A stretch of DNA of 35,953 bases from Gemmatimonadaceae bacterium. Lineage in GTDB: Bacteria; Gemmatimonadota; Gemmatimonadetes; Gemmatimonadales; Gemmatimonadaceae. Both the position numbers and the translations under genes were made by a program. The notes below the pieces were generated by a model. It was not told the DNA's origin and ran no database searches. It saw only the letters and a list, made by a program, of their open reading frames with translations. Within the stretch, counting starts at the first letter, position 1, and every line of letters begins with the position of its first letter. The stretch covers positions 1-35,953 of the forward strand of contig JAIBBJ010000059.1 in NCBI GenBank assembly GCA_019694735.1, given 5' to 3'. Positions 14,578 through 32,172 of this stretch are shown here, piece by piece.

Positions 14578-16344
14578 GTGCCGGCCACCCTCCACGGGGT
14601 CTCGGCGTCCCCCGGCATCGTCGTCGGGCCCGCCCACCTGCTGCGGTGGGAGGTGCCGGAGGTGCCGTCGCGGGTGATCGACGACGCGGAGATCGAGGGA
14701 GAGATCGCGCGGCTTCGGACCTGCATCGAGGCCGCGTGCGACCGTCTGCGCGCGGTGAAGGCGCGTGCCGAGGAGAAGGCGGGGGCCGCGGAGGCGGCGA
14801 TCTTCGACGTGCAGGTGGCCATCCTGCAGGACGGCGAACTGCGCACCCGGATCGAGACGCTCGTGCGGCAGAACCTCGCGGCCGAGAAGGCGTTCGACCT
14901 CGTCATGCTCGAGTGGCGCGAGCATTTCGGGCGCTCGACGAACCCGATGATGCGCGAGCGCGTCGGGGACCTCGTGGACGTGCACATCCGGCTGCTCTCG
15001 CTCCTGCTCGATCTGCCCGACCACGACCCGGTCGACCTCGAACCGGGCTCGAATGCGATCCTCGTCACGCACGACCTCACGCCGTCGCTGACGATCCAGC
15101 TCGATCGGCGGGCGATCGCCGGCATCGCCACCGATGCCGGGACACGCACGTCGCATGTGGCGATCCTCGCGCGGTCGCTCGGGCTGCCCGCGGTCGTGGG
15201 CCTCATCGACGCCACGAGCAAGCTCCAGACCGGCGACCGCGTCATCCTCGATGGGACGAACGGCACCCTGATCCCGCGCCCGACGGCGGCGGTGCTCGCC
15301 CAGTTCGCGGACCGGGCGCGGCGGGAGGCGGCCGCGCAGGCCGAGCTCGCGACCCTCGCCGACGCCGAGGCCGTGATGCTGGACGGCACGCGCGTGACCC
15401 TGCGCGCGAATGTGGACCTCCCCGACGAGGCCGGCCGCGCCGCCGAGAGCGGGGCCGAGGGGGTCGGCCTGATGCGCACCGAGTTCCTCGTCGTGGGGCG
15501 CACGGCGATGCCGAGCGAGGATGAGCAGGTGGAGGCCTACGCGAACGTCGTGCGCGCGTTCCGCGGCCAGCCCGTGGTGATCCGGACGTACGATGTCGGC
15601 GGCGACAAGCTGCCCATCGGGGGCTTCCCCCACGAGCCCAACCCCTTCCTCGGCTGGCGCGCGATCCGGATGTGCCTCGACGAGCCGGAACTGTTCAAGG
15701 TGCAGCTGCGCGCGCTGCTCCGGGCGGCCGTCGATGGCGACCTGCGCATCATGCTCCCGCTCGTCGTGTCGGTCGAGGAGGTGCGCCAGGCGCGCTTCCT
15801 GCTGCAGGAGGCGGCGGACGAGCTCTCGCGGCGGGGCATCGCGCACCGCGCCGATGTGCCGCTCGGCGTGATGATCGAGACCCCGGCGGCCGCGATGAGC
15901 GCGGACTCGTTCGCGGACGACGTCAGCTTCTTCTCCATCGGGACGAACGACCTGGTGCAGTACACGCTGGCGGTGGACCGCGGCAACGCCTCGTTGGTGA
16001 CGCGCTACACCCCGTTGCATCCGGCGGTGCTGCGGCTGATCGCGCGGACCGTCGAGGTGGCGCGCGGCGCCCGGCTCGACGTCAGCGTGTGCGGCGAGAT
16101 GGCCTCGCAGCCGTTGATGGCGTTCGCCCTGCTCGGGCTCGGGGTGCACACCCTCAGCGTCGCGCCGAGCGGCATCCCGGCGGTGAAGCGGCTCGTGCGG
16201 GGGGTGAGCCAGGCGGCCGCGCGCGATGCCGCGACGGCGGCCCTGCGGAGCGCCACCGCCCGCGAGGCGGAGCAGGTGCTCCGCCAGGCCCTCGGGGCGC
16301 AACTGGGTGAGGAGCTCCTCGACGGGTTGCTCGGCCTCGCCTGA
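14578..16344 (+). CDS. ptsI: PTS Enzyme I (phosphoenolpyruvate-protein phosphotransferase)
   Basis: Enzyme I (588 residues, normal length) starts the PTS relay by taking phosphate from PEP onto a histidine. The active-site His is His193 in [11 protein letters not shown]. The PEP-binding TIM barrel carries Gly-Val-Gly-Leu-Met-Arg-Thr-Glu-Phe, Gly-Thr-Asn-Asp-Leu-Val-Gln-Tyr and the catalytic Cys motif Val-Cys-Gly-Glu-Met-Ala. The GTG at 14578 is preceded by GGGGAG. It ends the PTS run, and a strong hairpin follows 30 bases after the stop. Confidence 0.97.
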
Positions 16345-19304: not shown

Positions 19305-19465
19305 CCACAACCGAAAGCGAACGCGGGACACGGAAGCCGGTGCGATGCCGGCGCGGCCCCGCCACTGTAACGGGCAACCACACGTCCGCTCACGACCCGC
19401 CACTGGGCTCACGCCCGGGAAGGCGAGCGGACGGCCCGGAGCCAGGAGACGACCCACGTTCGCGC
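19305..19465 (+). ncRNA. Cobalamin (vitamin B12) riboswitch aptamer
   Basis: The core elements of the B12 riboswitch class occur in order. GGAAGCCGGTG starts at 19332. CCCCGCCACTGTAACGGG follows at about 19357-19374. GCCACTGGG at about 19399 comes with a GGGAAGGC, flanked by the long helix GTCCGCTC / GAGCGGAC. The B12 box AGCCAGGAGAC is at 19440-19450. A closing helix GCGAACG (19317-19323) with CGTTCGC (19457-19463) brackets the core. Downstream are a terminator and btuF, so the aptamer should shut off B12 uptake when adenosylcobalamin or a related cobalamin is plentiful. Confidence 0.93.
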
Positions 19466-19548
19466 CACACTCGGACCCTCGGGGGAGGGTCGGTGGCGTC
19501 GCGGGCCGCACGTCCTCTGACTCGTGCGCGACCGTGCACGTGCATCGA

Positions 19549-19577
19549 GGCTCCTTCGCACTCCGAAGGAGCCTTTT
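19549..19577 (+). terminator. Riboswitch-controlled intrinsic terminator before btuF
   Basis: A ten-base-pair perfect stem, GGCTCCTTCG (19549-19558) with CGAAGGAGCC (19564-19573), closes a CACTC loop and runs into TTTT. It ends six bases before the btuF ATG. The 3' arm contains the Shine-Dalgarno sequence. The GGCTCC of the 5' arm is also complementary to GGAGCC at 19438-19443 in the aptamer, which could form an antiterminator. Confidence 0.85.
19566..19571 (+). promoter_or_regulatory. btuF ribosome binding site held in the terminator stem
   Basis: AAGGAG, the best Shine-Dalgarno match I saw in the window, lies 12 bases before the btuF ATG (19584). It is fully base-paired when the terminator hairpin forms, so any read-through message would also be poorly translated. 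Confidence 0.6.
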
Positions 19578-19583
19578 CGTTCG

Positions 19584-20480
19584 ATGCGTCCCGGACCCGT
19601 CGCGCCCCTCGCGTTCGCCCTGATCGTCGCCGTCGGGTCCGCCTGCGGCCCCCGTCCCGCCGCGGAGGTGGACGCGGACCCGGCGGTCGATGACTTCGGC
19701 GACACGGTGGCCGTCGATCGCGTCGCGGCGCGCATCGTCTCGCTGAATCCCGTCACGACGGAGTTCCTGCTGGCCCTCGGGGCGGGGGACCGGCTCGTCG
19801 GGCGGACGCACTGGGACCTCTTCAACGAGGCGGCGCGCGCGATCCCCGATGTCGGGGACGGGATGCAGCCGAACGTCGAGGTGGTGCTCGGGCAGCGGCC
19901 GGACCTCGTGATCCTCTACGCGACGGAGTCGAACCGCGCCGCCGCGCGGCAGTTCCGCCGCGCCGGCGTGGCGACGCTCGCCTACCGGACGGACCGCATC
20001 AACGACCTGCCGCGCGTCGCGCCGGTGCTCGCGGCGGCCGTGGGGCGCCGCGGCGAGAGCCACCGCGTCACCGACACCGTCCTCGCGCGGCTCGACTCGT
20101 TGCGGCGCGCGCCGGCCGCGGGCGCGCCGGTGCGTGCCTTCTGGCATGTGTGGGACGCGCCGGTCCTCACCATCGGCAAGGGCAGCTATCTGTCCGAGCT
20201 GCTGGAGCTCGCCGGCGGCGTGAACGTCTTCGCCGACCTGGAGGCACCGTCGCCGCAGGTCACCCTCGAGGAGGTCGCGCGGCGTGATCCCGATGTCGTG
20301 CTCGCCGGCCCCGAGGGCGCCCGCGCCATCCGGGGCAGCGCCGCGTGGCGCGCCGTTCGCGCCGTGCGCGAGGGGCGCATCGTCGAGATCGACACCGGGA
20401 TCGTCGGGCGGCCGGGCATCCGGATGGCGGAGGCGGCGCAGTTCCTGCGCGCACGTCTCCATCCCGAGGGACCGCGGTGA
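19584..20480 (+). CDS. btuF: Periplasmic cobalamin-binding (lipo)protein
   Basis: This 298-residue protein is a class III (helical-backbone) substrate-binding protein of the BtuF/FecB type that delivers B12 to BtuCD. The N-terminal hydrophobic segment ends in Val-Gly-Ser-Ala-Cys21, a lipobox-like site with a weak -3 residue, so it may be lipid-anchored. The binding domain starts with Arg-Ile-Val-Ser-Leu-Asn-Pro and includes Glu-Val-Val-Leu-Gly-Gln-Arg-Pro-Asp-Leu-Val, typical of the family. Assignment to B12 rather than iron chelates rests on the riboswitch directly upstream. The stop overlaps btuC (GTGA). Confidence 0.88.
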   Translation: MRPGPVAPLAFALIVAVGSACGPRPAAEVDADPAVDDFGDTVAVDRVAARIVSLNPVTTEFLLALGAGDRLVGRTHWDLFNEAARAIPDVGDGMQPNVEVVLGQRPDLVILYATESNRAAARQFRRAGVATLAYRTDRINDLPRVAPVLAAAVGRRGESHRVTDTVLARLDSLRRAPAAGAPVRAFWHVWDAPVLTIGKGSYLSELLELAGGVNVFADLEAPSPQVTLEEVARRDPDVVLAGPEGARAIRGSAAWRAVRAVREGRIVEIDTGIVGRPGIRMAEAAQFLRARLHPEGPR

Positions 20481-21466
20481 GCGCGAGCGCCCGTGTGCGC
20501 TGGGCCACGCTCCTCGCCGCGCTCGTCGCGGCGGTGACGCTCGGGCTCGCGTTCGGTCCGGTGCCGATCGCGCCGCTCGATGTCTGGCGCGCGCTCGCGG
20601 GCGTCGGCGACGCCGCGGTGGTGGGCATCGTCCGCGACCTGCGGCTGCCGCGCGTCGCGCTCGGTCTCGTGGTCGGGGCGGGGCTCGCGGCCAGCGGCAC
20701 CGCCCTCCAGGCCACGCTCCGGAACCCGCTCGCCGAGCCCTATCTGCTCGGCGTCTCCGGTGGCGCGGCCGTGGGCGCGGTGCTCGCCGTGACGCTCGGC
20801 TTCGCGGCGCCGGGACTCGTCCCGCTGAGTGCCTTCGCCGGCGCGACCGGGGCCGTCATGCTCGTGCTGCTGGTCGCGCGCGCCGCCGGCGGACGGGCCG
20901 ATCCGCGGCTGCTCCTCATGGCTGGCGTCGTCGTCGGGGCCTTCTGCACCGCGGCGATCATGGTGGCGCTCGCGACGGCCCCTGAGGGCGCCGTGCGCGG
21001 CGCGCTCTGGTGGATGATGGGTTCCCTCGGAGACGCGCAGTGGAGCGGCGTGCGCTGGGTCGCGGCGTACGTCCTGGTCGGCGTCGCGCTGCTCGCGCTC
21101 TGGGGGCGGGATCTGGACGTCCTCGCGCTCGGCGAGGAGGCGGCCGCTTCGCTCGGGCTCGACGTCGAACGTGCGACCCGCCGCATCTACCTGACCGCCT
21201 CGCTGCTCGCGGCGGCGACGGTCGCCGGTGCGGGCCTCATCGGGTTCGTCGGACTCGTCGTGCCCGCGATCGCGCGAGCGCTCGGCGGCCGTGGCGCGCG
21301 CGAGACCGTGCTCGCCTCCGCGCTCGCCGGCGGGACGCTCGTCGTCGTGGCCGACCTCGCCGCCCGCACGGCGCTGCGCCCGGCCGAACTGCCACTCGGC
21401 GCGGTCACGGCGCTGGTCGGCGTGCCGTTCTTCCTCTGGCGGCTGAAGGACGGGGCGACCCGATGA
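20477..21466 (+). CDS. btuC: Cobalamin ABC transporter permease (FecCD family)
   Basis: This 329-residue protein of the BtuC/FecCD family has many hydrophobic segments and forms the inner-membrane channel with BtuD. Family motifs seen are Arg-Leu-Pro-Arg-Val near residue 57, Gln-Ala-Thr-Leu-Arg-Asn-Pro-Leu-Ala-Glu-Pro-Tyr-Leu-Leu-Gly, Gly-Phe-Val-Gly-Leu-Val-Val-Pro and Glu-Leu-Pro-Leu-Gly-Ala-Val-Thr-Ala. The usual His after Val-Val-Pro in the coupling-helix region is Ala here. The GTG has GAGGGA just upstream. The stop overlaps btuD as ATGA. Confidence 0.93.
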   Translation: MSASARVRWATLLAALVAAVTLGLAFGPVPIAPLDVWRALAGVGDAAVVGIVRDLRLPRVALGLVVGAGLAASGTALQATLRNPLAEPYLLGVSGGAAVGAVLAVTLGFAAPGLVPLSAFAGATGAVMLVLLVARAAGGRADPRLLLMAGVVVGAFCTAAIMVALATAPEGAVRGALWWMMGSLGDAQWSGVRWVAAYVLVGVALLALWGRDLDVLALGEEAAASLGLDVERATRRIYLTASLLAAATVAGAGLIGFVGLVVPAIARALGGRGARETVLASALAGGTLVVVADLAARTALRPAELPLGAVTALVGVPFFLWRLKDGATR

Positions 21467-22248
21467 TCCACTTCGACGACGTGGTGCTGGGATATGGGGC
21501 CGGGGACCCGGTGGTGCGCGGGGTGCGCTTCACTGCGGCGGCCGGGCACCTCACCGCCGTGGTCGGGCCGAACGGGTCGGGGAAGAGCACGCTCGTGCGC
21601 GCGCTGCTCGGCCGCATCGCGGTGCACGGCGGGGCCGTCCGCGTGGACGGCCGCCCGATCGCCGGACGTGACCGCCGCGAGATCGCGCGCGCGATGGCCG
21701 TCGTGCCGCAGCGCGAGGAACCGGCCTTCCCGCTCGCCGTGCGCGACTTCATCGCGCTCGGTCGCTTCCCGCATGGCGGCGCCTTCGGTGGGCACACCGC
21801 GGCGGACCACGCCGCGATCGCGCGCGCGGCCGAGCGCGCCGCGGTCGAACCATTCCTCGCGCGCCGGACCGACGAGTTGTCGGGCGGCGAGTGGCAGCGC
21901 GTCCGGATCGCCCGCGCGCTCGCCCAGGGCGCGCGGACGCTCGTGCTCGACGAACCGACGACGTACCTCGACATCGCGCACGAGATGGCGGTGTTCGAGC
22001 TGATGGACGCGCTCGCGCGCGAGGGCCACGCGGTCCTCGTGGTGAGCCACCAGCTCAACCTCGTGGCCCGCTTCGCGGACCACATCGTGCTGCTGCACCG
22101 CGGCAGCGTCGCGGCCGCCGGGACGCCGGCGGACGTGATGCGCGGGGACGTGCTCGAACGGGTCTACGAGTGGCCACTCGTCGTCTCGCGCGATCCCGCC
22201 GTCGGTGCTCCCGTGCTCGTGCCCCTCCGGGGGCGCGGCACCCGCTAG
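21463..22248 (+). CDS. btuD: Cobalamin ABC transporter ATPase
   Basis: This 261-residue ABC ATPase powers B12 import with BtuC. Walker A Gly-Pro-Asn-Gly-Ser-Gly-Lys-Ser-Thr is at residues 35-43, the signature Leu-Ser-Gly-Gly-Glu starts at 139, Walker B is Leu-Val-Leu-Asp-Glu-Pro, and the switch His is in Val-Ser-His-Gln. The layout matches the FecE/BtuD subfamily. The start is an ATG in an ATGA overlap. The btuB gene follows after 48 bases. Confidence 0.93.
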   Translation: MIHFDDVVLGYGAGDPVVRGVRFTAAAGHLTAVVGPNGSGKSTLVRALLGRIAVHGGAVRVDGRPIAGRDRREIARAMAVVPQREEPAFPLAVRDFIALGRFPHGGAFGGHTAADHAAIARAAERAAVEPFLARRTDELSGGEWQRVRIARALAQGARTLVLDEPTTYLDIAHEMAVFELMDALAREGHAVLVVSHQLNLVARFADHIVLLHRGSVAAAGTPADVMRGDVLERVYEWPLVVSRDPAVGAPVLVPLRGRGTR

Positions 22249-22296: not shown

Positions 22297-24243
22297 GTGA
22301 CCCCCTCGTCGTTCCGCCGCGCCACCCTGCTGGTCGCCTGCGCTGCCGTGCCCGTTGCCGCCCAGGCGCGCCGCGACACGCTCACCCTCCCGCCCGAGGT
22401 GGTGACGGCCACCCGGCTTCCCGGCGTGCCCCGCACGCCCACCGCGACCGCCACGGTGCTCGACGGCGACGTCCTGCGGGCCGAGGGGATCACGCACCTC
22501 GCCGACGCGCTGCGCCGCGTCCCCGGCCTCAGCGTCGTGCGCTCGTCGTCCTTCGGTTCCCCGGTGTCGCTCTTCCTGCGGGGCGGCGAGTCCGACTACG
22601 TGCGGGTGCTCGTGGATGGCGTGCCCGTGAACGATCCGGGGGGCGCCGTGGACCTCGGTCGGATCACGCTCGATGATGTCGAGCGGATCGAGGTCGTGCG
22701 CGGCCCGTCGAGCGTCCTCTACGGGTCGGAGGCCGTGACGGGTGTCATCCAGCTCTTCACGCGCCGCGGCGGCGCTCCGCAGCAGCGGGCCGAGGTCGGG
22801 GGCGGCTCCTACGGGACCCGGCGCGCATCGCTCGGCGCCGACGGGCGGCTCGGCGGCGCGACCTGGACGCTGCAGGGCGACCATCACGCGTCGGACGGCA
22901 TCCTCGCCTACAACAACGCCTACCGGAACGACGGCCTCGCGGGCGCGCTCTCCTTCCGCCGCGGTGCGTCCGACCTGCGCGTGACCACGCGCTACAGCGG
23001 CTCCTCGTACCGGTATCCGACGGGGTCCGGCGGTGCACTCGAGGATCGGAACGCCGAGCGCGGCGAACATCGGCTCCTGCTCGGCGCGGAAGGCGGTCGT
23101 CGCTGGAACGATCGCTTCGAGGTGCGCGCGGCCTTCACCGCCAACACCTTCCATCCGCGGACGAGTGACGGGGCTGACGACGCCGGCGACACCCTCGGCT
23201 TCTACGGCTTCACCTCGACGGCGGTCGTCACGCGCCGGGTCGCGGACCTGCGGACCGTCCTGCGCACCGGCCGTGCGGCGCACCTGACCCTCGGCGTCGA
23301 GGCCGCGCGCGAGGTCGAGCACGCCAACTCCGTCTCGCTCTCCGAGTTCGGGCCGAGCGCCGATTCCTCGCGGAACGCGCGGGACACACGCGCGGCGTAC
23401 GCGCAGTTCCTCGGCGAGCACGGGCGCCTCGCGTGGTCGGCGGGCGCGCGGCTCGACGACAACAGTGCCTTCGGTACCTTCCGGACGGTGCGGCTCGGCG
23501 CGGCGTGGCGGCTGGCCCCGGCACTGCGCGCCCGCGCGTCCGTCGGCAACGCGTTCAAGGCGCCGAGCTTCTACGAGAACTTCGCGACCGGATTCGTCAT
23601 CGGGAACGCGGCGCTCCGGCCGGAGCGCTCACGGGCGACCGAACTCGGCGTGGAGGGGCTCCTCGCCGGACGCGCGCTCGTGCGCGTCACCGGCTTCACG
23701 CAGCGCTTCCGCGACCTGATCCAGTACACGTTCGTCACGCCGGCGCCGGGTGACCCGAACTACTACAATGTCGCCGAGGCGAACGCGGGCGGGGTCGAGG
23801 TGGAGGCGGAGCTCCCCGACCTCGCCGGCGTGGATGCGATCATCGGCTACACCTGGACCGACACCCGCGTCGTCGACGCCGGGTTCGACACCGACGACAA
23901 CGCGACCTTCGTGGCCGGCAACCGGCTGCTGCGGCGGCCGGAGCACGTCGCCTCATTGCGCCTCGCGCGGACGCTCGGCCGCGCGGGCCGGGTGAGCGCG
24001 GTGGTGATGCGGGTGGGGGAGCGTGAGGACCGGGACTACGGCGTCTTCCCGGCCGGCGTGGTGCGGCTCCCGGCGTACGCGACGATCGACCTTGCCGCCG
24101 AGCTGGCCTTGCCGGGACGCTGGTGGCCCGGGGCGCAGCTGCAGCTTCGCGCCGACAACGTCGCGGATGCGCGCCTCGAGCAGATCGCCGGTTTCCGCGC
24201 CCCGGGGCGCACGCTCTACGCGGGGCTTAAGTTGTCGAGGTGA
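22297..24243 (+). CDS. btuB: TonB-dependent outer-membrane receptor, probably for cobalamin
   Basis: This 648-residue protein has a signal peptide ending Val-Ala-Ala-Gln-Ala and a TonB-box-like Asp-Thr-Leu-Thr-Leu at the mature start. The plug domain carries Thr-Ala-Thr-Arg-Leu, Leu-Ala-Asp-Ala-Leu-Arg-Arg-Val-Pro-Gly and Glu-Val-Val-Arg-Gly-Pro-Ser-Ser-Val-Leu-Tyr-Gly. The barrel includes Asn-Ala-Phe-Lys-Ala-Pro-Ser-Phe, and the end is Thr-Leu-Tyr-Ala-Gly-Leu-Lys-Leu. Length and plug fit BtuB, and its place behind a B12 riboswitch with btuFCD supports the substrate. The start is a GTG with no clear ribosome binding site. It overlaps recO by GTGA. Confidence 0.88.
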   Translation: MTPSSFRRATLLVACAAVPVAAQARRDTLTLPPEVVTATRLPGVPRTPTATATVLDGDVLRAEGITHLADALRRVPGLSVVRSSSFGSPVSLFLRGGESDYVRVLVDGVPVNDPGGAVDLGRITLDDVERIEVVRGPSSVLYGSEAVTGVIQLFTRRGGAPQQRAEVGGGSYGTRRASLGADGRLGGATWTLQGDHHASDGILAYNNAYRNDGLAGALSFRRGASDLRVTTRYSGSSYRYPTGSGGALEDRNAERGEHRLLLGAEGGRRWNDRFEVRAAFTANTFHPRTSDGADDAGDTLGFYGFTSTAVVTRRVADLRTVLRTGRAAHLTLGVEAAREVEHANSVSLSEFGPSADSSRNARDTRAAYAQFLGEHGRLAWSAGARLDDNSAFGTFRTVRLGAAWRLAPALRARASVGNAFKAPSFYENFATGFVIGNAALRPERSRATELGVEGLLAGRALVRVTGFTQRFRDLIQYTFVTPAPGDPNYYNVAEANAGGVEVEAELPDLAGVDAIIGYTWTDTRVVDAGFDTDDNATFVAGNRLLRRPEHVASLRLARTLGRAGRVSAVVMRVGEREDRDYGVFPAGVVRLPAYATIDLAAELALPGRWWPGAQLQLRADNVADARLEQIAGFRAPGRTLYAGLKLSR

Positions 24244-31925: not shown

Positions 31926-32012
31926 GGACAGGTGGCCGAGTGGCTGAAGGCACCGGTCTCGAAAACCGGCATACCGGCAACGGTATCGTGAGTTCGAATC
32001 TCACCCTGTCCG
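31926..32012 (+). tRNA. tRNA-Ser (anticodon CGA)
   Basis: The acceptor stem is GGACAGG/CCTGTCC with discriminator G. The anticodon stem CCGGT/ACCGG holds the loop CTCGAAA, so the anticodon is CGA and reads UCG. The long variable arm (ATACCG-GCAA-CGGTAT) and the G discriminator are class II serine features. The T arm is GTGAG-TTCGAAT-CTCAC. CCA is not encoded. Confidence 0.95.
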
Positions 32013-32084: not shown

Positions 32085-32172
32085 GGACGGATGGCCGAGT
32101 GGTTTAAGGCGCACGCCTGGAAAGTGTGTGTACGTTAACAGCGTACCGTGGGTTCGAATCCCACTCCGTCCG
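32085..32172 (+). tRNA. tRNA-Ser (anticodon GGA)
   Basis: The acceptor stem is GGACGGA/TCCGTCC with discriminator G. The anticodon loop CTGGAAA gives GGA, which reads UCC and UCU. The variable arm is GTACG-TTAACAG-CGTAC and the T arm GTGGG-TTCGAAT-CCCAC. CCA is not encoded. It is not tRNA-Sec: the anticodon is not TCA. Confidence 0.95.

Follow-up and report, generated by a model that had tools for sequence, protein, structure and literature searches.

A predicted dual-platform cobalamin riboswitch with a probable P13-strand antiterminator ahead of a btuF-like operon in Gemmatimonadaceae

A cobalamin riboswitch, whose ligand binding is predicted from sequence, lies ahead of a B12-uptake operon in a 35,953-nt stretch of DNA from a Gemmatimonadaceae bacterium (hereafter the window). 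It is likely that this leader acts as an OFF switch on a dual platform, in which a single hairpin terminates transcription and hides the ribosome site, and that an antiterminator built from the 3′ strand of P13 completes the control of the btuFCD-btuB-like operon. Dual cobalamin riboswitches would then extend to a lineage that has been little studied, in which they would be the norm for btuF and not an oddity, and the comparison indicates that the type of P13-strand antiterminator established in a single Firmicute is in use far away from it.

The aptamer, the operon and the terminator hairpin

With a gathering cut-off of 31.5 bits, the RF00174 covariance model matches the window at 70.9 bits (Table 1), and a search of the whole genome returned the same match as a single copy. 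The first-pass annotation had recognized a cobalamin aptamer here and named this model as the check; its identification holds, and its coordinates were all correct when the sequence was re-read. The aptamer is followed by genes whose Pfam domains give the order btuF-btuC-btuD-btuB-like. A consensus promoter scan found no sigma-70 site. Two tRNA genes with long variable arms, serine-like, lie close together elsewhere in the window (31926-32012 and 32085-32172).

Table 1. Features of the riboswitch leader and operon (window coordinates)
Feature	Position	Strand	Basis or remark
P1 5′ strand, aptamer	19318-19327	+	CGAACGCGGG; partner 19453-19462 with one C/A mismatch; read from sequence
Cobalamin riboswitch aptamer core	19332-19450	+	RF00174, 70.9 bits
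L5 loop CCCCG, proposed kissing partner of L13	19357-19361	+	complementarity to L13, -10.1 kcal/mol
GGAGCC, antiterminator strand of the first-pass annotation	19438-19443	+	overlaps the B12 box; pairing not conserved outside the genus
B12 box	19441-19450	+	GCCAGGAGAC, exact in sequence; inside the RF00174 match
P13 hairpin	19463-19498	+	L13 loop CGGGGG 19480-19485; folds at -22.2 kcal/mol
Proposed antiterminator, one long hairpin	19480-19558	+	P13 3′ strand, linker and terminator 5′ arm; folding and swap tests
Predicted terminator hairpin, also sequestering the ribosome site	19549-19573	+	U-run 19574-19577
Shine-Dalgarno AAGGAG, inside the 3′ arm	19566-19571	+	read from sequence
btuF-like periplasmic (lipo)protein gene	19584-20480	+	PF01497
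btuC-like permease gene	20477-21466	+	PF01032 FecCD
btuD-like ABC ATPase gene	21463-22248	+	PF00005
btuB-like TonB-dependent receptor gene	22297-24243	+	PF07715 and PF00593

Kissing complementarity is present between L5 (CCCCG) and L13 (CGGGG). A variable loop near GCCACTG was also considered as L5 and rejected as the wrong loop, one that varies freely. Across relatives L5 reads CCCCG in most leaders and UCCCG in all leaders of four genera with altered L13 (g37, g43, g44 and g3); within these genera UCCCG is found exactly in the leaders whose L13 departs from CGGGGGAG, a coincidence that suggests a coupled kissing-loop change.

Just ahead of btuF, the 5′ arm GGCTCCTTCG (19549-19558), the loop CACTC (19559-19563) and the 3′ arm CGAAGGAGCC (19564-19573) form a perfect stem of 10 bp that folds on its own at -17.3 kcal/mol and runs directly into TTTT (19574-19577), only four uninterrupted U. 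The perfect ten-pair hairpin of the first-pass annotation is thus confirmed; its U-run ends 6 nt before the ATG (19584-19586), the stem itself 10 nt before it. AAGGAG is likewise found in the 3′ arm as annotated, no other Shine-Dalgarno (SD) sequence lies between the stem and the start codon, and its distance of 12 nt to the ATG is longer than optimal. In the dual platform described for riboswitches (Barrick and Breaker, 2007, PMC2258182), the terminator lies near the gene, at most 10 nt from the start codon, and the 3′ side of its hairpin contains the ribosome site. The window falls within this definition, with a stem-loop that ends at exactly 10 nt and has a U tail, and with AAGGAG in the 3′ side. 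According to the same study, the dual category had been predicted earlier for cobalamin riboswitches too.

A consensus terminator scan did not list the terminator of the window; the stem can be extended by A19548-U19574 and G19547-U19575, leaving fewer than five T, which may account for the miss. To gauge the rarity of the arrangement, stems with at least 8 perfect base pairs and TTTT behind them were counted in 295 kb sampled from this genome (72.6% G+C). Five were found, that of the window among them, and none in each of three Markov controls (0, 0, 0), so chance and base composition do not account for the combination. Of the remaining four, one comes after a SAM-II riboswitch (RF00521, 44.1 bits; L186:998-1084, contig C70), where a 10-bp stem with a six-T run comes next and the nearest long downstream reading frame looks homoserine acetyltransferase-like. 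This genome also has two terminator-like stems that are nearly identical (GACCTCGCGT...ACGCGAGGTC) and end in T-runs; they lie on opposite strands at a distance of about 10 kb (L172:5092-5115 and 14885-14908).

The dual-function hairpin in related genera

RF00174 was searched in relatives and then in the whole family of the window, and 170 loci were surveyed, 128 of them with a btuF-like gene downstream. Nearly all leaders run from the aptamer to a P13 hairpin immediately downstream of the B12 box (its loop CUCGGGGGAGG or closely similar), a linker, a second hairpin and the start codon. Seventeen leaders in which the second hairpin was absent or the calls were doubtful were taken out by hand; the leader set comprised 111 leaders in 33 genera, 103 of which (28 genera) have a stem of at least 8 bp. 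Hairpins were picked by energy, and a separate terminator-hairpin alignment was not the basis of the counts. The best hairpin reaches -20.9 kcal/mol, compared with -14.3 in shuffles, and in 98 of 102 btuF leaders no more than 10 nt separate the stem from the start codon; the start codon is often TTG or GTG and lies within or beside the U-run.

This anatomy, with its conservation, is a direct observation on the leaders. One hairpin serving as both terminator and ribosome-site blocker, as the first-pass annotation proposed, is seen again in the btuF leaders of related genera, about 100 in all, and comparison supports the dual control of transcription and translation well. Judged from the sequences, the design recurs lineage-wide, in about 30 genera of relatives, and belongs to a category of dual platforms that already has its name. 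Barrick and Breaker (2007) assigned theirs by distance only, whereas here the antiterminator partner and the conservation across the lineage were examined as well. A literature search for cobalamin riboswitches together with Gemmatimonadetes returned nothing on such a switch.

The hairpin might instead act on translation alone, hiding the SD while the U-run just reflects low structure near the start codon and no termination takes place there. Translation control is the commonest mode outside Firmicutes (PMC2258182). Moreover, six short leaders (L012, L029, L035, L040, L043 and L055) have no second hairpin and place the start codon directly after P13, where the P13 strand GGGAGGG would be the SD, and the U-runs are weak or interrupted in several relatives, as they are short in the window. 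Against this, the 8 nt after the stem hold on average 5.1 T (at least four in 90 of 103 leaders), four times the 1.29 T of ordinary SD spacers in the genome of the window (n = 17); many relatives have 5-8 consecutive U, and a stem followed by TTTT is very rare in that genome. Pure translation control is unlikely.

Equally, the SD in the stem might be incidental, and read-through transcripts freely translated. The terminator features of the hairpin would fit, the long spacing in the window means that AAGGAG may be a weak SD, and 25 of the 103 related stems have no SD-like motif. The other 78 do carry one in the 3′ arm, however, and the window offers no alternative SD between stem and start codon, which makes control at the level of transcription alone quite improbable.

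Two further arrangements were seen among the relatives. High-scoring second cobalamin riboswitches of a related genus (L062 and L067) precede genes that look ribonucleotide reductase-like in translation, and in one genome (G024, contig C491:11146-11638; L052 and L056) two cobalamin riboswitches lie about 100 bp apart on opposite strands.

The strand that pairs with the terminator 5′ arm

The antiterminator of this dual-platform switch is probably formed by the 3′ strand of P13 (19480-19498), a helix first drawn from the sequences, ahead of any comparison with the metE switch of Priestia megaterium. Folding was done with the P13 5′ strand and the terminator 3′ arm left out. The resulting long hairpin has 30 pairs in the window, 19480-19487 facing 19551-19558 and 19490-19504 facing 19532-19548, and reaches -42.8 kcal/mol, as against -46.5 for the P13 form; over the 103 leaders it lies on average 3.7 kcal/mol above the P13 form. 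At least five pairs between the P13 3′ strand and the terminator 5′ arm can be formed in 101 of the 103, and against dinucleotide shuffles the long hairpin has a mean z of -2.6, with genera g2 and g7 showing no favourable z.

Swapping tests point the same way. The native hairpin beats one whose 3′ half was exchanged between genera in 24 of 28 genera (p 1.3e-5) and one with only the P13 3′ strand swapped in 21 of 28 (p 0.0012), statistics that treat genera as independent and were obtained on leaders from which the P13 idea had partly been formed. The second figure is the more specific, since swapping the 3′ half also disturbs linker pairs. When windows along the entire leader were scanned against the terminator arm, those of the L13 region paired most strongly (-12 to -14 kcal/mol). 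Their native-over-swapped score was also the most extreme one (Z -3.1, with p 0.003 uncorrected for about 85 windows). RNAalifold recovered the P13-strand helix as the consensus of 29 leaders.

Some of this complementarity is of a general kind: exposed purine strands of the L13 type are G-rich and pair with any pyrimidine-rich arm, and beyond the part forced by the SD the complementarity of L13 is weakly enriched (p 0.02-0.03). Double compensatory changes in the antiterminator were absent from the sequence alignment, in which the linkers align poorly. In one leader (L132) an altered L13 (GGAGCAAG) still matches the terminator arm (CUUGCUCC) at eight of eight positions; in leaders of g43, g3 and g44 with altered L13, pairing with their own arms was not improved. 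Among twelve leaders outside the btuF set, three (two before btuB-like genes, one before a btuC-like gene) form the hairpin with z of -3.5 to -5.3, and in the remaining ones it is weak or negative.

The first-pass annotation had assigned the antiterminator to the B12 box: GGCTCC of the terminator 5′ arm (19549-19554) would pair with GGAGCC, of which it is the exact reverse complement, and opening of the aptamer core would itself turn the gene on. The pairing is real in the window. Its duplex with flanks (-14.8 kcal/mol) and that of the P13 strand with the same arm (-14.3 kcal/mol) are not separated by energy, it has a pairing probability of about 0.3 in a truncated transcript, and when helices are forced there it costs 2.8 kcal/mol against 9 for the P13-strand helix, a difference due to the great stability of P13. 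When the complete leader or truncated transcripts were folded without constraint, the outcome was ambiguous, with many competing pairings with the aptamer.

Outside the genus, however, the box pairing is not retained. An exact GGCTCC arm is shared by 10 leaders from the genus of the window and by a single other leader, essentially one genus. Of the 111 leaders, 84 lack both GGCTCC and GGCTTC; where the arm reads GGCTTC, the box is GGAGCC in some leaders and GAAGCC in others, and one leader (L006) combines GAAGCC with GGCTTC. Covariation itself has little power here, as the box is nearly invariant. The proposed helix swap found no support in the exchange tests either: pairing of the box with its native arm has no advantage over swapped arms (Z +0.5), the box windows of the leader scan lie at about -8 kcal/mol with a positive Z in every one, and the long hairpin becomes 12 kcal/mol weaker when the box, a segment 4 nt shorter, takes the place of the P13 strand. 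Much of the complementarity to GGAG of the box is a by-product, because a 3′ arm that contains an SD must face CUCC in the 5′ arm, a sequence able to pair with GGAG anywhere and with either GGAG of the box. When the SD-complementary positions were locked, the full box segment did worse than shuffled sequence and its first half weakly better (p 0.027). Having failed the tests of conservation, of native against swapped arms and of G/A box variants, the B12-box antiterminator is probably wrong, and control through it has very little probability. SD-bearing terminators will automatically look complementary to the GGAG motifs of B12 boxes, which calls for caution.

Proposed refolding and known switches

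With the P13 strand as antiterminator, bound cobalamin would let L5 (19357-19361) kiss L13 (19480-19484) and hold the P13 hairpin. The terminator 5′ arm would then be free for its 3′ arm, transcription would stop at the U-run, and any RNA read through in the presence of ligand would keep its SD hidden within the terminator stem. In the absence of cobalamin, P13 would open and give its purine-rich 3′ strand to the long hairpin (19480-19558), which would also take in the linker and the 5′ arm of the terminator; RNA polymerase would pass, and the SD in the unpaired 3′ arm would be exposed. The decision must presumably be taken during transcription, since the OFF form gains a large advantage in stability as soon as the terminator 3′ arm has been made. 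We infer the response to ligand, termination and the sequence of refolding steps from the P. megaterium metE corrinoid riboswitch, in which the 3′ side of P13 pairs with the 5′ side of the terminator and was identified as the antiterminator by mutagenesis (PMC10653944). The same P13-strand antiterminator is predicted here; the metE switch, by contrast, is a transcriptional one of a Firmicute, while in the window an SD lies within the terminator as well and btuF is the gene behind it. As in E. coli btuB and env8HyCbl (as described in PMC10653944), the kissing loop would stabilize P13 and lead to a hidden ribosome site, but those are translational platforms, to which the window adds a hairpin resembling an intrinsic terminator.

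Relatives of the same order with short leaders (L012, L040 and L055, for example) share the aptamer, P13 and btuF and differ in lacking the second hairpin. Short and long leaders within one order form a natural series for following how a translation-only switch gains a terminator. One tentative reading, which we hold to be possible though doubtful, is that throughout the lineage two SD-like purine strands, those of P13 and of the terminator, compete for a single anti-SD-like strand, and that a terminator bearing an SD, whose U-run contained or adjoined the start codon, was inserted downstream of an older switch in which the purine strand of P13 was the SD.
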